DNA of 64,000 nucleotides, from contig NZ_LUKD01000001.1 of the NCBI RefSeq assembly GCF_001592745.1, forward strand, positions 242,489 through 306,488, given 5' to 3'. Every line of letters starts with the position of its first letter. The stretch's first letter is position 1. The notes under the pieces were generated by a model that did not search any database, was not told the DNA's origin, and worked only from the letters and a program-made list of their open reading frames with translations. Position numbers and translations under genes: made by a program. This stretch comes from Bdellovibrio bacteriovorus. GTDB lineage: Bacteria > Bdellovibrionota > Bdellovibrionia > Bdellovibrionales > Bdellovibrionaceae. Positions 5,249 to 13,073 of the stretch are shown here, piece after piece.

Positions 5249-5488
5249 AAAAAGCTCCACGAACCACATGAAAAAACAAACTTGTGGGCCGAACTAACTA
5301 TTTAGAACCTCTAATATTTTCGACCTCTAAGTATGTATGTGATTACTTACTTATGTGAACGCAGATTACACCCAACCCAAATAAGTAATCAAGCAATTAC
5401 TTAAAAATTAAGCAGTGGGGGCCGAACTATAGAAAGAAATATCGAGACCGTTGCAAGACTGCGGTGGGAAATGCACGAAATTTTAAGA
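5249..5488. promoter_or_regulatory. Intergenic region with direct and inverted repeats
   Basis: About 240 bases between the class III pilin-like gene and the DUF3943-like gene, both on the minus strand. The string GGGCCGAACTA occurs twice in direct orientation (5286-5296 and about 5419-5429). Between the copies lie repeated TTACTT/AAGTAA strings, including an inverted repeat AAGTAAT/ATTACTT around 5381-5402. This is the likely promoter and operator region for the minus-strand gene at 4625-5248. No reading frame here looks coding. Confidence 0.35.
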
Positions 5489-5674
5489 CTATTGCTTACG
5501 TTTATCAGGAACGTCTTGAGCGACAACGTTCAGAATGTTGTGCCATTTTGAGACAAGAATACCCGGCTCTTCGGAATTACGACTGGCCAACTGCTTTACG
5601 AGCAAGGCGGAAAGTCCGACGGCGATGGTGAGGAGGAGCACATACTCCACCACGATTTGACCACGTTTATTCAT
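5489..5674 (-). CDS. Small class III-signal pilin-like protein (Flp/TadE-like)
   Basis: 61-residue protein starting MNKRGQIVVEYVLLLTIAVG. The pattern basic-Gly, Gln, then Glu-Tyr and a hydrophobic stretch matches class III prepilin signal peptides and Flp-type pilins. Cleavage would occur near the Gly-Gln junction, leaving a single N-terminal helix. The short tail ends in PDKRKQ. Flp pilins and TadE-like pseudopilins are assembled by Tad systems, but no tad genes are visible here. It lies 13 bases after the upstream gene on the same strand, so the two probably share a transcript. Confidence 0.6.
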   Translation of the reverse strand: MNKRGQIVVEYVLLLTIAVGLSALLVKQLASRNSEEPGILVSKWHNILNVVAQDVPDKRKQ

Positions 5675-5687
5675 GAATTAGATGATA

Positions 5688-6119
5688 TCACACTTCCGCA
5701 AGAGCTAAAGCAGGAGCAGTGACAGCTGGACGCCAGTTTTCCATTGTGAGACGCAAAGTCTCTATCAAAAGATCTAGGTTTTCGTCTTCGATAGGACCAC
5801 GAAGTCCAATCACCACGTCGTCGTGCCACTTTTCAACTTCCAGAGGACCTGGTTTTCCGATGGCGCCTTCGAAGGAAAGAGCAAAACTATCTACGGTAGG
5901 ATAAACCATCACAAGGATGTTTGCTCCTGAAGCTTTAGAAACTTCTTTGGCCTTCGCCATTTCCGCGCCCAACTTCTGTTGAATCAAGAAATAGATTTTC
6001 AAAGCCAGAGCTTCATGAAACTGAGCAAAGTAAATGCGAACGGGACCATCAAAGATGGCACTGTTAAAAGCAGGATTAAAATACTTCGACTGCATTAAAG
6101 TGGTGTATGACGATCTCAT
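5688..6119 (-). CDS. Hypothetical protein upstream of the pilin-like gene
   Basis: 143 residues from the ATG at 6119. An in-frame ATG at 6143 exists, but GGAGGGGA lies just ahead of the inner one. No signal peptide or membrane segment is seen. The sequence is mixed alpha/beta in character (for example ANILVMVYPTVDSFALSF) with a hydrophobic alanine-rich end. I do not recognise the family. It is followed after 13 bases by the class III pilin-like gene, so a cytoplasmic accessory role for that pilin is possible but unproven. Confidence 0.6.
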   Translation of the reverse strand: MRSSYTTLMQSKYFNPAFNSAIFDGPVRIYFAQFHEALALKIYFLIQQKLGAEMAKAKEVSKASGANILVMVYPTVDSFALSFEGAIGKPGPLEVEKWHDDVVIGLRGPIEDENLDLLIETLRLTMENWRPAVTAPALALAEV

Positions 6120-6222
6120 GTTGTAGCTTCCCCTCCACGACACAGCTCAAGACTAGGAAGAAATGCCGTGTTTATTCAAAGGAAATTTTAAGAATCTTAA
6201 ATTTTCTGACGCAGCAGATTAT

Positions 6223-7464
6223 TTAAAGACTATTAAAAACCTTCTTTCCTCTCGAAAAAACAGCCTTCTTCGGCGCATCCCCCACGCTGTAAAACAGGGT
6301 TCGCCAGTCCTTCTCGATGCACAAAATATCAGCAGACTTCCCGACCTCAATGGAACCCACCTCTTGCTGCAAGTTCAAAGCATGAGCAGCTCCGACAGTG
6401 TAGGCTCCGATGACTTCAGGAAGTGTCATCTTCATTTCAAGTCGCGCTAGCAATCCCACCAAATTTAAATCCTGTGTGGGTGATGTCCCTGGATTAAAAT
6501 CTGTCGCTAAGGCCACGCGGGCCCCTGCTGCAATCATGTCGCGAGCGCGCGGATAATTTGTTTTTGTATAGAGATCCGCTGCGGGCAGAAGGACACAAGT
6601 CACTTCAGACTTCGCCAAAGCTTGAATCTCTTTATCCGAGACTTGCAAAAGATGGTCACCTGACAAGGCTCCTAAGCGGACAGCCACATCACTTCCGCCG
6701 CTTAAAGACATTTGATCGGCGTGAATCAGAATTTCAAATCCCATCTCTTGAGCTTTACGCAAATACGCTTCGGATTCCGCTTTCGGAAAAAAGCCTTTTT
6801 CGATAAAGACATCCACGCGACGAGCGAGCTTTTTCTTTTTAACTACTGGAAGGACTTTATCGCCCAAGAAGTTTAAATACTCTTCATAGGTTTTAAATTC
6901 AGGAGGCAGAGCGTGCGCACCCAAGAACGTGCAGACAGTCCGAAGATTCTTAATTGTGTTCGCGGCCTCAAGCATTTTTAATTCATCTTTTAAATTCAAT
7001 GCATAACCGGATTTGATTTCAACCGTCGTCACACCTTGAGAAATAAAGTGATTCGCTCTTTCCTGTCCGTCTTTAGCCAGTTCAGAAACTTTCGCCGAAC
7101 GCGTTTTCTTCATGGTGGATAAAATACCGCCTCCGCGAGCGGCAATTTCCTGATAACTGACACCTTGATTGCGCATTTCAAACTCTGCAGCGCGATCCCC
7201 TGAAAAAATCAAATGTGTGTGACATTCTACAAAACCTGGAAGGACCGTAAGTCCCTTCATGTCGAACTCTTTAAGACCTTTTTTTCGAGACCATTCTTTC
7301 GGAAGTTTTTTATGCGCCCCCACCCACGCAATGCGATCTTTTTCGATCACGACAGAGGCGTTAGACTGAATGCTAAGATCTTCTTCCTGCACGTGCCGTC
7401 CGCCTTTTGCGGAAGCGCCTTGCAAGGTCAGAAGTGTGGAAATATTTTTTAAAAGAATGCCCAT
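6223..7464 (-). CDS. hutI: Imidazolonepropionase
   Basis: Third enzyme of histidine degradation, hydrolysing 4-imidazolone-5-propionate to N-formimino-glutamate in the cytosol. It has 413 residues, normal for the family. Amidohydrolase landmarks are present: the metal-binding VECHTHLIFSGDRAAEF, the substrate-binding ARGGGILST, a central IHADQMSLSGG and the ATDFNPGTSPT segment. hutU and hutH lie 25-28 kb away, so the pathway is split in this genome. No hutG or hutF is visible here. A weak AT-rich inverted repeat follows the gene, but no clear terminator. Confidence 0.95.
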   Translation of the reverse strand: MGILLKNISTLLTLQGASAKGGRHVQEEDLSIQSNASVVIEKDRIAWVGAHKKLPKEWSRKKGLKEFDMKGLTVLPGFVECHTHLIFSGDRAAEFEMRNQGVSYQEIAARGGGILSTMKKTRSAKVSELAKDGQERANHFISQGVTTVEIKSGYALNLKDELKMLEAANTIKNLRTVCTFLGAHALPPEFKTYEEYLNFLGDKVLPVVKKKKLARRVDVFIEKGFFPKAESEAYLRKAQEMGFEILIHADQMSLSGGSDVAVRLGALSGDHLLQVSDKEIQALAKSEVTCVLLPAADLYTKTNYPRARDMIAAGARVALATDFNPGTSPTQDLNLVGLLARLEMKMTLPEVIGAYTVGAAHALNLQQEVGSIEVGKSADILCIEKDWRTLFYSVGDAPKKAVFSRGKKVFNSL

Positions 7465-7507
7465 GGTTTATTCAAACACATGCACGCCTAGGATCAAGCA
7501 AAAATAA

Positions 7508-7532
7508 AAACGGCGCCCTTAGAGCGCCGTTT
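7508..7532 (-). terminator. Intrinsic terminator of the minor-pilin-like operon
   Basis: Stem AAACGGCGC/GCGCCGTTT with a seven-base loop, followed on the minus strand by a T-rich run. It lies 25 bases past the stop of the EF-hand protein gene and would end that operon before hutI. Confidence 0.85.
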
Positions 7533-7556
7533 CACCATCTTAACTGTAATAAAATA

Positions 7557-8699
7557 TTATTGCGGCGAGAACCACATATCGATGATGGATCCCTGCTTCT
7601 CTTTACCTTTCTCTACGAAGACAAAGGTGCTGCGCTCACGCGCTTCTGCTCGAGAACCAAACGGTGTCTTCGCACTGTCATCGTATTTCAATGAAATCGA
7701 CTTGATGCGCGACTTTAATGGTACAAGCTCGGAAGCTTGCGATTTACCATCACCATTTTTATCAAACCACAGAAGAAGTTTTGCAAAGTCTTTGTCGTTT
7801 TTATCGATCACGCCATCGCCATTAGAGTCAAACTCTCGCAAGGCTTCGAAACCGTTTTTAAACTTCTCACCTTCATTACCAAAAAGCTCGTCCGCTTTTG
7901 TGATCTTCTTATCGCCATCACGGTCGATAGCCACGAAAGCTCCCGGAGCTTTCTTTTCTGGCCATGATGTTTTGCCTGAAGGATTCAGAGGGAACTCTGA
8001 ATGACCGTCAAATCGCGGACGATTGTCGTCGAAGAAGACCATTAATGGAGAGAAGTAACCGCCGCAGTGACCTGTCTCGCCCGGAAAAAAGGCGGAGATA
8101 CTGTATTGCCGGCCGTCTTTAGACGAACTGGTATAAATACTAGCCGAAAGAGGGCCGTCAGTACCCATATACTGTTGTCCTGCCTTCGGTGCGAACGTTT
8201 GTGAAAAGGAAGTCCCATGAAGCTTTACATCGAAATCTTCACTAATATTCCCTTCTTCATCGACGGTCGTTGTAACTGAAATTGGTACAACCATTCGTAC
8301 TATATTCCCTGCATACGAAGCCACTACGCCAGGGGAAACATTTGCCCCAGTTATGTCTTGCACCACTTCGTCACCAGCGTTCAATACTATATCCGCTGGA
8401 TATTTAACCAAATAACTTTTAACTGTCCCCTTGTCATTGATAGCGACATTGAACTCAACAGTCGCACCCCTCGCAATCGGATTTGAAACCGAACGAAGAT
8501 TTGTACCAAAACAAGTATTCGTAATATTTATGGTGATAGCGTTCTGTGCCGCTCGAGTCACTTGCCCGGAAAGCACAACCCCTTGGAAACCGGCCGTGCC
8601 ACCCACGCCCGAGTTGACGGCTGCGGGTTCTTGTTCCGCGTGTGCGTAAACCCCGATGCCGAATAAAAGTGGCAGTGGTAGCCATCTTCTAAGAAACAT
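7557..8699 (-). CDS. Secreted protein with three EF-hand-type calcium loops
   Basis: 380 residues with a signal peptide ending near VYAHA. The N-terminal half is beta-rich and not recognised. The C-terminal third carries three consecutive calcium-loop motifs: DRDGDKKITKADE, DSNGDGVIDKNDKDF and DKNGDGKSQASEL, each with Asp at the expected positions. They are followed by an IKSISLKYDD strand and a short tail. This layout recurs near the ends of large secreted and surface proteins. It is the last gene of a run with three pseudopilin genes, 34 bases downstream of the third. That is the position of the calcium-binding PilY1 in type IV minor-pilin operons, although no PilY1 propeller is evident. 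Confidence 0.7.
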   Translation of the reverse strand: MFLRRWLPLPLLFGIGVYAHAEQEPAAVNSGVGGTAGFQGVVLSGQVTRAAQNAITINITNTCFGTNLRSVSNPIARGATVEFNVAINDKGTVKSYLVKYPADIVLNAGDEVVQDITGANVSPGVVASYAGNIVRMVVPISVTTTVDEEGNISEDFDVKLHGTSFSQTFAPKAGQQYMGTDGPLSASIYTSSSKDGRQYSISAFFPGETGHCGGYFSPLMVFFDDNRPRFDGHSEFPLNPSGKTSWPEKKAPGAFVAIDRDGDKKITKADELFGNEGEKFKNGFEALREFDSNGDGVIDKNDKDFAKLLLWFDKNGDGKSQASELVPLKSRIKSISLKYDDSAKTPFGSRAEARERSTFVFVEKGKEKQGSIIDMWFSPQ

Positions 8700-8733
8700 A
8701 CAAGCCCCCTTGTTTTCCCCTTAACGTGCCCTA

Positions 8734-9699
8734 TTATTTACCCACATCTTGTGGACGAATAATTTGGTAATAAATCAAAGAATCCCGTGCGTTGTTTCTA
8801 GAGAAGACAACTCTAGTTACATCGGCTGCGAACAATTGACCCTTAGAAAACGTATTATTCATATAAACAGAACGCAAAAGATTGACTGTCTTCGTTTTCG
8901 GGTCTCTCTCTAAATAATACTTGATAATATTCACGGCTTTCAAGCGCACAAGAGGAGCAGCGCCCCCCATCGGCGGTATATCCCTTAAGAACTTATCTTC
9001 ATCGTTGATTGTCTCATTTGGATACAAGGGATGAGTCTTATTTAAGAAACCTGTGAGGTTGAAGGGGGTCAGTCTTGATTCCCCCGGTGCGTTTACAATT
9101 CCCACGAAAATCGGAGAGCGGGCTGGCACATTGTAGTTGGGTCCTGTCGGAGTCATCTCGCGAACAGCTGCTGGAGAGTCCAACATCAAAATCGTCCCTA
9201 CCTGCCAAAATCCCGGATTGGATTTTAAAACTTCATTTCCTTTGTTCAAAGACCGGAAGATTAAAGCCGCCTCTTGATTCGCACTTGCCGGAAGAGCCCC
9301 TAAATCGTAAGCCAAGGCCGGCGTGTACATCATCGTTCCCAACTTGTCGTTGGAAGTCATAAAGACAAACTCATTGCGACGACCAAACTCCAACGTCAGC
9401 TTTCTTGGAGCATCGAACTCTTGGTCTCCACCAGAATCCGAGACATAGTCGAAGAAACGAAAGCCTGTATCGTCGGGAATCAACACATTATTGAAAGAAG
9501 GTTCAGAGTATTTAAGGTCTTTAAGAATCATACGCTCAGCGATGATGTTATCAACCTTATCTTCGATCTCATTGGTGATTTGATCTTTGGTCTTTGCAGT
9601 AAAAACAAAGAAAGATGCGGCAACCATCCCCATGATCCCGAGGAGGGCCACACCGACAACCATTTCTGCTAATGAGAAACCTTTTTGATTCAACTTCAT
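8734..9699 (-). CDS. Pseudopilin with prepilin cleavage site, PilW/GspJ-like position
   Basis: 321 residues beginning MKLNQKGFSLAEMVVGVALLG. The prepilin peptidase site is Gly7-Phe8, Glu sits at mature position 5, and about 20 hydrophobic residues follow, all canonical for type IV pilin-like proteins. The globular part is unusually long for a minor pilin. The start overlaps the stop of the previous pseudopilin (ATGA at 9696-9699), so translation is coupled. By size and order it resembles PilW or GspJ, but sequence identity to either is not claimed. Confidence 0.8.
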   Translation of the reverse strand: MKLNQKGFSLAEMVVGVALLGIMGMVAASFFVFTAKTKDQITNEIEDKVDNIIAERMILKDLKYSEPSFNNVLIPDDTGFRFFDYVSDSGGDQEFDAPRKLTLEFGRRNEFVFMTSNDKLGTMMYTPALAYDLGALPASANQEAALIFRSLNKGNEVLKSNPGFWQVGTILMLDSPAAVREMTPTGPNYNVPARSPIFVGIVNAPGESRLTPFNLTGFLNKTHPLYPNETINDEDKFLRDIPPMGGAAPLVRLKAVNIIKYYLERDPKTKTVNLLRSVYMNNTFSKGQLFAADVTRVVFSRNNARDSLIYYQIIRPQDVGK

Positions 9700-10187
9700 T
9701 GTGAGTTCACCACAAACTGATAATCTTGAAAGCCATAGTTGGCTGGATTGCTAGGAAGACTTCCGTCACCTTGAGCCTGCGACCAATCTTTATGACTCAT
9801 TCTTACCGTCACTAAATACAATCCCTTAAATTCTGGTGATGCCTGCACCACGAAGCCATATCGTCCTGGACATTCAGAACAATCTTTTGCCGGCAAAATT
9901 TTACCATTTCCCCAGGCCATAGGAAGCTTGTCTAAAGCCAGAGCTTCACTGCGTGACTTGTCTGACGTGGAATAATTGATTTGATACATACGAACATTCG
10001 GGCGGATATTTTCAATCACGTCGTTGATCTGTTTGTACAAAGAGTTCTTCGTACCGCTTTCTTTAGCGACTTTACGCATGTTGATAGTTCCTGAAATAAA
10101 GAACGAACCAACTAACGTAATCATGGCCATTCCAAGCAGCGATTCTAAGATCGAAATACCTTTTTGGTTCTTGAGTTGCGACATCAT
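9696..10187 (-). CDS. Pseudopilin with prepilin cleavage site, PilV/GspI-like position
   Basis: 163 residues starting MMSQLKNQKGISILESLLGM, with cleavage expected between Gly and Ile and Glu at mature position 5, followed by a hydrophobic helix. The first two codons are both ATG, and either could be used, as the upstream stop overlaps them. A pair of cysteines (CSECPG) sits in the middle of the globular part. It is the smallest of three adjacent pseudopilins, in the place PilV or GspI takes in minor-pilin operons. Confidence 0.8.
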   Translation of the reverse strand: MMSQLKNQKGISILESLLGMAMITLVGSFFISGTINMRKVAKESGTKNSLYKQINDVIENIRPNVRMYQINYSTSDKSRSEALALDKLPMAWGNGKILPAKDCSECPGRYGFVVQASPEFKGLYLVTVRMSHKDWSQAQGDGSLPSNPANYGFQDYQFVVNSQ

Positions 10188-12937
10188 ATGCCGGACTCCC
10201 GCGAAATTTCTAATACATAAAAATGAACAAGACGGTTCTTACAAGTCGTCGCTGTTCCAGTCGAACTTGAGAGACCGCAATCTGGGTCTACGGATGTCCA
10301 ACGGAACGGATCGGCCTTCGAACGAAGAGCGATCGAATTACAGCGATATAGATTTGCCACATTTATCATTGAAGGATAAGGATGCCATACAGGATAGCGG
10401 GCAATTGTCGAACAATCCTGTCCGTTGATGCCTTTTAGCACGCGTGCTTGGCGCAACTCATAAGTAGCCATTGGATGATAAATTGTACTCCAACGAATTC
10501 CATGATTATAGGCGGTATCATCAATATCAATTCCGTTTGTTACGATAAAACTACCGATAATTCGCAATGGCTCACCACGAGGCTCAATTATTAGTTTTTC
10601 ACATGTAAAGAAACCTGCTACAAAATTTGCGGTGCTTTTAATAATACAATTTTTAGCCATAGACACGACTTGGAAGTCGACATTAGAAATACCCCCGGCC
10701 TTATAAGCGTTCTCACGCTTCAACTCAATGTCCTTTCGATTTTCATACTTTTCGGTAAATGACCAAGAGAATTTCGCGTTTGGAGCGAACGACAGTCCCC
10801 AGTCACTCAAACCGAAGGCAGAGTTTTCCGGAGTTTTGCAAATTATGTCATAGTTTTTATATGCGTTCTCATTCGGTAGCTCCCCACGCCATTGCCCGTA
10901 CTGGTCTCCAAGATACTGAGAACCTTTAATCGCCGTACCTTCACGACTGAACTGCAAAGTACCTACGTTATTATTGGACCACGGTCTTAAAGAATACTTT
11001 TTATAATAAGAAACGTCATATGCCTCAAGGCGCATATTCAGGGAAAGCGGGTTGCCGTTACTATCAAGTAGCATCTCTTCATTTTCAAAAGAGACTTCAA
11101 GGTCACGGAAAGAAGCATTTCCGGAGTTCGTGGAGTTAGGGTTGTTAGGATCTTGAGGATACTTTAATGTGATATGCACTTTGGGTTGCACACCTTCTTT
11201 AGATTCCACTGCCGCCAATTGTCTTTCGAACGTAGTTACTTGCTCTGAAGCTCGAGCAAGATCATTGTTTTTATTTTCTTTTGCACGGTTGATTTCGCGA
11301 ATCTGTCTTTTAATATCTTCAACACGATCCTCAAGACGAGCTATGCGGTCACGGTCTTTTTTATCACGGGCTTCACGCAAGTTATCTTCTGTTTGCTCAA
11401 GGTCTCTGTTCGCACGAGCTAATGCATTTTCAATTTCTCTAATATCCTGTTCAAGTCTTTCTTTTGCAAACTGGGCGTCTGCAAGTTTCCGTCTGATCGA
11501 ATCCTTTAAGCCAGAAAGATCAATTTTCGGCTCTAACGTCACTGTTCCGTTATCTGGAATCTCACCCAAAACGACAACGGACTGACCGAAGCTCATAGTG
11601 AACTTCGCTACAGCGGCTTCTTTTTTTGTCAGGTTAAATGTATTCAGAATACCGCGGATTGCATTCGGCGCATCGACTTCACCCGTTTGCGGATTGAATC
11701 GGTTTTTGTCCGTCATACCCAGACGGTACTGATGTTTACTGCCTGTATTTCGTAAAATTTGACCACGCAGCTGACTGTTAATCGTGCTTTTCAAATCATA
11801 TTTTGAAAGATTGTACTCGACACATTTTTTTAAATCCGAAGGATCCACCGTATCGCCACTGGTCTGAAAGCCGGAAAGGAAGTCTAAACCGATGTCGCGC
11901 GCGCCATCCAGCTCAACCCCTTTTTGAAAGCCACCAAACTGGCGGATGTTCGCCCAGAACTGATCTGAGTCGGCTCCCGCGCTTCGAGGTTGAAACTCGG
12001 CGTTCCTACGAAGCACCGGGCCTTCACCTAAAATAATCTTATCTTTGAATGTCACTGGCGTATAAACTGTATCAACGCCCTTTTCGTCAGACTCTAAATC
12101 AGGTGCCGCGGGTAAGCGAACCGCTCCATTTACAAACACCGGACTTTCAAAAATAAGTCCTGGAAATCTTAAACGATCATTTCTAGAAGAAAATTGTTTT
12201 AGGGCTGCATCCCCTTTTGCTTCAGGGACACCGGATCTATTCTCTTTATCTAAGTGAAGATCACCAGCCACGAGCAAAGCAAAGCTTCCCACTTCGCGAG
12301 GATATACGCCGATTTTTGAAGTCGTCGTTAATTCACTGCCGCCGACCAGAATCGGTTTGCCTGAACCATCCAACAAACTGATTTTGACCGTAAGATAAAG
12401 CTCTCGGCCGTATTCGGGAATCACACCGCGATTATCGCGTGCTATGTCAATGCGAATCGCTTCGGTTTTATAACCCTTTAACTCAGATACGATTTTGTAA
12501 ACAGGATGAAGGGCACTGAAAGTTTTTAAGTTGATCGTCTCGCCAAATCGAATCAAGGGAGCTTTTTCTGGATTTGTAACACCGGCCAAACGCAAAAAGT
12601 TCACCGTTTCGGCCTTCATCAACATACGCTCGATAGAACGCGGATGCGCAAGCACTCCGTTCATGTTGTCGCCGCATTTTTCCGGCATCCAGTCTTTAGA
12701 AAAACACCAGCGTTGTTTGATACCAAACAACGTAAAGTCCATCATCGAGTGCAACGCCAATCGCGCCGTGATGATAGAAGCGGTCTTCGTCACTTGTTGA
12801 CGATGTTTAATGACTTGCGGAGATAAGAAATAAAGCATAACGCCCACGACACCAACGGCGACGAGGGCTTGGACAAAGGCGCTACCTTTGTTGTTCGGCT
12901 TCAAGATAGAACGTTCTAGCCAGAAGAGTGGTTTCAT
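10184..12937 (-). CDS. Giant coiled-coil pseudopilin-like protein (GspK/PilX-like N-terminus)
   Basis: 917 residues from the ATG at 12937, preceded by AGGAGA at good spacing. A longer frame begins at 12979. The N-terminus has a prepilin-like site, NNKG|SAFVQALVAVGVVG, followed by a hydrophobic helix, but mature position 5 is Gln instead of Glu. Loss of Glu5 is a known trait of the tip pseudopilin GspK. Residues about 475-577 form a long charged coiled coil rich in Glu, Arg and Lys. The C-terminal part is beta-like with scattered cysteines. GspK proteins are about 300 residues, so this is about three times the usual size. It is the first gene of a four-gene run with two ordinary pseudopilins and an EF-hand protein. 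Confidence 0.7.
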   Translation of the reverse strand: MKPLFWLERSILKPNNKGSAFVQALVAVGVVGVMLYFLSPQVIKHRQQVTKTASIITARLALHSMMDFTLFGIKQRWCFSKDWMPEKCGDNMNGVLAHPRSIERMLMKAETVNFLRLAGVTNPEKAPLIRFGETINLKTFSALHPVYKIVSELKGYKTEAIRIDIARDNRGVIPEYGRELYLTVKISLLDGSGKPILVGGSELTTTSKIGVYPREVGSFALLVAGDLHLDKENRSGVPEAKGDAALKQFSSRNDRLRFPGLIFESPVFVNGAVRLPAAPDLESDEKGVDTVYTPVTFKDKIILGEGPVLRRNAEFQPRSAGADSDQFWANIRQFGGFQKGVELDGARDIGLDFLSGFQTSGDTVDPSDLKKCVEYNLSKYDLKSTINSQLRGQILRNTGSKHQYRLGMTDKNRFNPQTGEVDAPNAIRGILNTFNLTKKEAAVAKFTMSFGQSVVVLGEIPDNGTVTLEPKIDLSGLKDSIRRKLADAQFAKERLEQDIREIENALARANRDLEQTEDNLREARDKKDRDRIARLEDRVEDIKRQIREINRAKENKNNDLARASEQVTTFERQLAAVESKEGVQPKVHITLKYPQDPNNPNSTNSGNASFRDLEVSFENEEMLLDSNGNPLSLNMRLEAYDVSYYKKYSLRPWSNNNVGTLQFSREGTAIKGSQYLGDQYGQWRGELPNENAYKNYDIICKTPENSAFGLSDWGLSFAPNAKFSWSFTEKYENRKDIELKRENAYKAGGISNVDFQVVSMAKNCIIKSTANFVAGFFTCEKLIIEPRGEPLRIIGSFIVTNGIDIDDTAYNHGIRWSTIYHPMATYELRQARVLKGINGQDCSTIARYPVWHPYPSMINVANLYRCNSIALRSKADPFRWTSVDPDCGLSSSTGTATTCKNRLVHFYVLEISRESGI

Positions 12938-13073
12938 GGCGAATCTCCTATCTGTCCATATCGACACACAGGATATCAAACTTAAGATACAAAAGTCCGG
13001 TAGGTCCTGAGATTTACCTGACTTTCACTCTTAGTGATTCACTATGAAACACTCGCTGTTTCGATCCGGGAAA

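Follow-up and report, generated by a model that had tools for sequence, protein, structure and literature searches.

A conserved four-gene module with a giant Glu5-less prepilin-type protein in Bdellovibrio bacteriovorus, a candidate tip complex of a type IV filament

Introduction

Type IV pili are required for Bdellovibrio predation. In Bdellovibrio bacteriovorus, a 64,000-nucleotide stretch of genomic DNA (RefSeq assembly GCF_001592745.1, contig NZ_LUKD01000001.1, positions 242,489 to 306,488; hereafter the window) contains four adjacent genes, named K, V, W and Y in this analysis, which raise the question of what their products assemble into and which filament machine they serve. K, V and W encode prepilin-type proteins; V and W have glutamate at mature position 5 (Glu5), and K, at 917 amino acids, has glutamine there. 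Y encodes a secreted protein with a calcium domain. The four genes are conserved together as a unit. Their products are best read as a complex that primes and forms the tip of a type IV filament, and among such filaments the type IVa pilus is the likeliest; confidence in this reading is about even.

Organization of the locus

The principal features are given in window coordinates, with the evidence in brackets.

10184..12937, minus strand: K, giant Glu5-less prepilin-type protein, 917 amino acids (open frame from ATG; family rows; AlphaFold2 model)
12869..12886, minus strand: prepilin site of K, G18↓SAFVQ, with Gln5 (sequence; glycine at -1 in 37 of 38 rows of alignment A1)
11198..11515, minus strand: antiparallel helical hairpin of K, residues 475-580 (AlphaFold2 model; optional in the family)
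9696..10187, minus strand: V, small Glu5 prepilin-type protein, 163 amino acids (open frame; 4-base overlap with K)
8734..9699, minus strand: W, Glu5 prepilin-type protein, 321 amino acids, N terminus GspJ/PilW-like (open frame and N_methyl match)
7557..8699, minus strand: Y, secreted protein, 380 amino acids, with a Sec-type signal sequence (judged by eye), a beta-sandwich domain and a calcium domain
7560..8051, minus strand: residues 217-380 of Y, fold of the FrpC self-processing module with three EF-hand loops (profile and structure match)
8046..8051, minus strand: Ser217-Pro218 of Y, at the place of the FrpC scissile Asp-Pro (structural alignment ends; homologue counts)

The K/V and V/W overlaps are four bases each, and a gap of 34 bases separates W from Y. 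The initial annotation of this locus had reported three adjacent prepilin-type genes, two with Glu5 and one of 917 residues with Gln5, and this is confirmed by the frames and by the family counts given below; also correct is its account of genes coupled by overlaps and, after them, a secreted protein bearing three EF-hand loops and a terminator.

Conservation and distribution of the module

A scan of 53 loci around K matches in relatives detected 56 modules, 54 of which have all four genes; the two incomplete modules stop at contig ends. The 26 named loci, from a search of one genome per species in bacteria and archaea, form a set that overlaps with the first, and all four genes are present in 24 of them, the other two loci again ending at contig ends. 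K was matched in 28 of 59 relatives and full-length Y in those same 28, and the calcium domain of Y occurs alone in eight further genomes. Gene order is variable, with Y preceding K in L037, L094, L098, L102 and L108, but linkage is kept. A second module, elsewhere in the same B. bacteriovorus genome, encodes proteins of 1007, 146, 334 and 415 amino acids.

Across the phylum, a profile of the C-terminal part of K matches 56 of 290 genomes, and nearly all of the matched frames are giant (828-1174 amino acids). The homologue search for K that the initial annotation had proposed finds the module beyond Bdellovibrio: Bdellovibrio, Pseudobdellovibrio, Bacteriovorax stolpii and Bacteriovoracaceae are represented among the named loci, as is one metagenome-assembled genome (MAG; L106) that carries the label Myxococcota in the tree tool. 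This MAG also encodes a second Y-like protein of 743 amino acids upstream of K. Two complete modules stand in tandem at L073, L075 and L078, and genome G006 carries two modules. No description of the module including Y was found in the literature searched, supplements and subscription papers lying outside that search.

The family counts come from several alignments. A1 contains K from 39 of the 56 modules and A2 contains Y from 34, with rows hand-picked for spread, while A3 comprises all 26 named loci and the window; fragments that lack the N terminus (L087, L090 and L097) were omitted from the tree and from A6. Truncated or missing Y sequences were omitted from A4, and A9 contains 15 of 30 frames for GspK of the type II secretion system (T2SS).

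V and W, the Glu5 pilins

The prepilin sites of the two smaller proteins are G10↓ISILE in V and G7↓FSLAE in W, and 24 of 25 V sequences and all 25 W sequences have Glu5. Among the pilins of the locus, W alone reaches a curated model unaided (N_methyl, E 1.6e-5); within the families, 19 of 25 V members and 22 of 25 W members match this model. In hhalign comparisons V pairs with PilA at 93.9% probability and with GspI at 86%, versus 15% for TadE2, and W pairs with GspJ at 96.9%, versus 1.3% for TadF1. Judged from the curated models and the profile comparison, V and W are pilins of the type IVa/T2SS class.

Preservation of Glu5 also bears on whether these proteins belong to a filament at all. K, V and W could be membrane-anchored periplasmic or surface proteins that have kept a prepilin leader outside any filament, and the sizes of K and Y would suit a surface complex; however, Glu5 serves filament assembly, and its near-complete retention in V and W makes this explanation very improbable.

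K, the giant Glu5-less pilin

Glutamate occurs at mature position 5 of K in none of 38 rows of A1 and none of 24 rows of A3; GspK of the T2SS is likewise Glu5-less (0 of 15). The prepilin motifs of K, V and W are not chance occurrences, since the patterns of glycine at -1 and of Glu5 recur across the families.

The AlphaFold2 model of K (27 rows; mean predicted local distance difference test, pLDDT, 83) has a first helix of 58 residues followed by four strands (130-213), and then three-residue strands at 261-310 that resemble solenoid rungs. Helices 475-526 and 529-580 form the hairpin, at a pLDDT of about 90, and a beta-rich C part lies beyond it, with the last strand at 906-915. About ten cysteines are conserved.

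The initial annotation remarked on the threefold size increase of K and on a coiled coil of about 100 residues, and took K to carry a long rod domain. The coiled coil does not explain the size, because 9 of the 27 rows in A3 lack the hairpin (11 residues or fewer) and these homologues are still about 840 amino acids or more; in place of a long rod, the model has a two-helix hairpin with about 52 residues per helix, or roughly 8 nm by arithmetic. Three changes of hairpin state are required by the tree. Nine orthologues of this K were compared: the insert is 110-115 residues long, and identity in the first helix is 77-96% over all nine. In eight of them the hairpin is 16-31% identical, as against 49-61% for the core; these figures are observed values and do not test selection. 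Constant length combined with low identity is as expected of a spacer. The second module has a K with a longer insert that is rich in Ser and Thr.

Matches of K to Pfam and NCBIfam models (FapA, SMC, Rad50 and others) are below cut-off and fall on the coiled coil, and were set aside as coiled-coil cross-matches. Profile matches of the K core in the PDB (LptA, geopilin and others; E 0.4-1.7) are at chance level, and a PDB profile search with the C part gave no matches. Only hairpins appear among the rows shown of the fold search (4ilo with Z 13.3, and others), and these do not imply kinship.

In the initial annotation, K was considered not typical of any minor pilin, but giant tip pilins have precedents in ComZ and KilN (PMC6561018, PMC12075869), and modular pilins are known as well (PMC8179133). 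ComZ of Thermus thermophilus is a GspK-like tip pilin comparable to K, with a large inserted domain that is thought not to fit inside the fibre (PMC6561018). Judged by its secondary structure, the K model has an order of elements that recalls ComZ, in which the extra domain comes before the last strand (PMC6561018). Unlike ComZ, K adds the hairpin, and a possible beta-solenoid in K is suggested by the runs of three-residue strands; ComZ, for its part, binds DNA.

Y, the secreted calcium protein

The model of Y has a pLDDT of 82, and its residues 218-380 share the fold of the Neisseria FrpC self-processing module (6sjw, 6sjx), with Z 19.4 and 2.5 Å over 154 residues for 6sjw; a profile search matches the C-terminal half to the same module with E 1.7e-26. 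Besides its three EF loops, that module has a fourth site for calcium and two tryptophans packed against each other (PMC7078468). The EF loops of Y are at 259-270, 291-302 and 313-324, and Trp246 and Trp311, which are invariant in 34 of 34 Y homologues, are probably packed in the same manner.

Unlike FrpC, Y and its homologues have an altered cutting site. Pro218 aligns with the proline after the scissile bond and Ser217 with the aspartate, as taken from the ends of the alignment ranges and not residue by residue. Serine occupies the scissile position in 33 of 34 sequences in A2 and 22 of 23 in A4, and the proline is present in 34 of 34; the lone exception to Ser-Pro is an Asp-Pro with a local insertion, at one place (L039/L104). 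The first ligand of the fourth calcium site is acidic in none of the 34 sequences, its position being counted from the same alignment, and there is no surrounding RTX (repeats-in-toxin) protein. Y has thus kept the fold and most of the calcium loops and lost the cutting site, and its calcium module seems no longer able to self-cut, self-cleavage being predicted to be absent.

For the N-terminal domain of Y (residues 47-207), a beta sandwich, no clear relative emerged; its immunoglobulin-like matches (8c27 with Z 6.3, CTLA-4 with about 4.7) represent common arrangements. A scan of viral contigs with Y gave 17 loci, each matching the C-terminal half only.

Domains of this type were also seen elsewhere. 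At L156 (G000:C8 506000-521000), positions 5366-7243 of the minus strand encode a 625-residue Glu5 prepilin-type protein with collagen-like repeats and a C-terminal domain resembling the self-processing module, again with Ser-Pro. In relatives, L237, L238, L239, L240 and L241 encode secreted lipoprotein-like proteins with the same domain type and an Asp-Pro-Leu motif near the scissile place; these could be active clip-and-link proteins in the phylum.

Comparison with known tip complexes

PilX of Myxococcus xanthus, Pseudomonas aeruginosa and Neisseria gonorrhoeae, and also GspK, are without Glu5 (PMC7541494). The M. xanthus type IVa set FimU/PilV/PilW/PilX/PilY1 resembles the module in having one Glu5-less minor pilin and others with Glu5, so that the Glu5 pattern of the module equals that of M. 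xanthus PilX versus the remaining minor pilins (PMC7541494). A further member of that set carries a type I signal peptide and depends on calcium, and the set occurs as several paralogous clusters (PMC7541494; PMC8833165), and the class III prepilin leader on K, V and W is shared with the type IVa minor pilin complex. Unlike the M. xanthus proteins, K is giant and has no PilX_N domain, Y has the self-processing-module fold and no PilY1 domain, and the module contains no FimU.

The KilLMN Tips of the Myxococcus Kil pilus, a Tad (Flp) pilus, provide the other close comparison, being three-pilin tips in paralogous copies whose one large pilin combines a beta scaffold with two long helices (PMC12075869; the likeness to K is by description). 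KilN-like Tip complexes were predicted in B. bacteriovorus in the same 2025 paper (PMC12075869), and the K-V-W trio may be that predicted Tip. Unlike KilLMN, V and W are of the type IVa/T2SS class and the module has a fourth gene, Y, no similar partner being found in the available part of the KilLMN description.

Which filament machine is served

The genome scan suggested in the initial annotation found all of the candidate machines in the B. bacteriovorus genome: PilA and PilB/T/C, a T2SS with its own GspG-K, and Tad loci. Co-occurrence is uninformative as a test among them, the T2SS GspK (59 of 59), PilB (59 of 59) and the Tad ATPases TadZA (59 of 59) and TadA2 (57 of 59) being near-universal in relatives whether or not K is present.

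V and W, by the class of pilin to which they belong, favour the type IVa pilus, which is ranked first with modest confidence. The Tad pilus is favoured by one locus, in genome G033 (L039/L104), in which a secretin and a TadA ATPase follow directly behind the module (K-V-W-Y-secretin-TadA, one strand). It is possible, as the second choice, that the module is a Tad pilus tip, the Bdellovibrio counterpart of KilLMN with K as KilN; the hairpin of K, its abundant beta structure and its conserved cysteines, as well as the published prediction, would agree with this. However, V and W are far nearer to type IVa and T2SS pilins than to the TadE and TadF of the same genome, the Tad linkage occurs in G033 alone among the loci examined, and the Tad ATPases are present in relatives regardless of K.

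A second, specialised T2SS pseudopilus tip for a particular cargo, with Y as that cargo, is an improbable alternative. W resembles GspJ, the T2SS is universal in relatives, and the Sec-type signal of Y would be compatible with a T2SS substrate; on the other hand, the T2SS operon already has GspG-K, with a GspK unrelated to K by profile, and gsp genes were never found beside the module in the flanks searched.

Several results weigh against the type IVa tip complex. Neither PilX_N nor the T2SSK/GspK curated models match K or 27 members of its family, and hhalign gives only 5.7% probability for K against the T2SS GspK. The pilin fold of K rests, in the model, on the long first helix and the strand order, as the fold search was swamped by the hairpin. 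The PilY1 model PF05567 does not match Y. Its absence from the B. bacteriovorus genome and from all 290 genomes of the phylum counts for the tip reading, with Y in the place of PilY1, but this absence is weakly controlled, because PF05567 was found in no control genome of the phylum scan and in one, below cut-off, in the scan of the B. bacteriovorus genome. The module contains no FimU/GspH-type gene. The type IVa pilus does not depend on the module, given that PilB is found in 59 of 59 relatives and the module in 56 of 290 genomes, and the gene order in G033 points to another machine.

The tip complex proposed in the initial annotation therefore stands in part. The conserved four-gene unit is upheld, as is the parallel with PilX/PilV/PilW/PilY1: a pilin without Glu5, two pilins that have it and a calcium protein of the Sec type. 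The kinship of K with GspK is not, in view of the model and profile results above and of the T2SS having its own GspK in every one of the 59 relatives.

A proposed tip complex

As a tip or priming complex of the type IVa pilus, the module would function by analogy with the minor pilins, K standing for PilX or GspK and Y for PilY1, of which Y is likely a substitute. The proposal builds on what was observed: coupled genes, a unit conserved as a whole, the Glu5 pattern, and in Y the calcium-domain fold (from model and profile) with its changed scissile site. Prepilin peptidase would cleave K, V and W, and their N-terminal helices would bundle in the inner membrane. K would be located at the very tip because, being Glu5-less, it would need no pilin above it, as has been proposed for PilX and GspK; W and V would lie below K and form the transition to the major pilin. 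Y would be exported via Sec, fold with calcium and dock on K as PilY1 does on PilX. The complex would then be carried on the extended filament to contact prey or a surface, with the K hairpin serving as a fixed-length spacer.

A more specific version of this mechanism, which is unlikely but not negligible, is a new tip lineage in which a dead clip-and-link module has replaced PilY1 and is kept for calcium-triggered folding. Y would be loose in low calcium and would shut on the K tip in the calcium outside, producing a calcium-gated prey-contact head with its reach set by the hairpin.

Other prepilin-type loci and flanking features

Further prepilin-type loci were observed in the same genome. 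A third trio at L154 3971-8111 (G000:C9) consists of a giant 857-residue Glu5-less prepilin-type protein and Glu5 proteins of 163 and 360 residues; it is unmatched by K, and no Y adjoins it. L155 4143-7883 (G000:C1) has a prepilin-type trio of 175, 399 and 465 amino acids followed by a 225-residue secreted protein. L156, L159 and L161 have prepilin-type pairs or trios near long proteins, which we take to resemble the chimeric fibre proteins of Bdellovibrio.

The remaining features of the module are its putative expression signals.

12945..12949, minus strand: AGGAG, likely ribosome-binding site of K (sequence)
7507..7533, minus strand: terminator-like stem-loop with a T tail, 3' of Y (12-pair stem)

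The start of K is placed at the ATG at 12937, which has the AGGAG a few bases 5' of it; the list of open reading frames instead begins K at a TTG at 12979. The stem at 7533-7507 ranks best among 16 terminator-like sites of the region, although the number of such sites alone is not above chance, as shuffles yield 10.0 +/- 3.9. The gene upstream of the module is presumably phosphoglycerate-mutase-like, and the downstream gene presumably imidazolonepropionase-like.

Implications

If the tip-complex reading is true, the self-processing-module fold would have a second role in Y, one that lies outside RTX proteins and dispenses with the cutting site. The module would also provide the first proteins to test for the Bdellovibrio pilus tip, and would predict how PilY1 was replaced.

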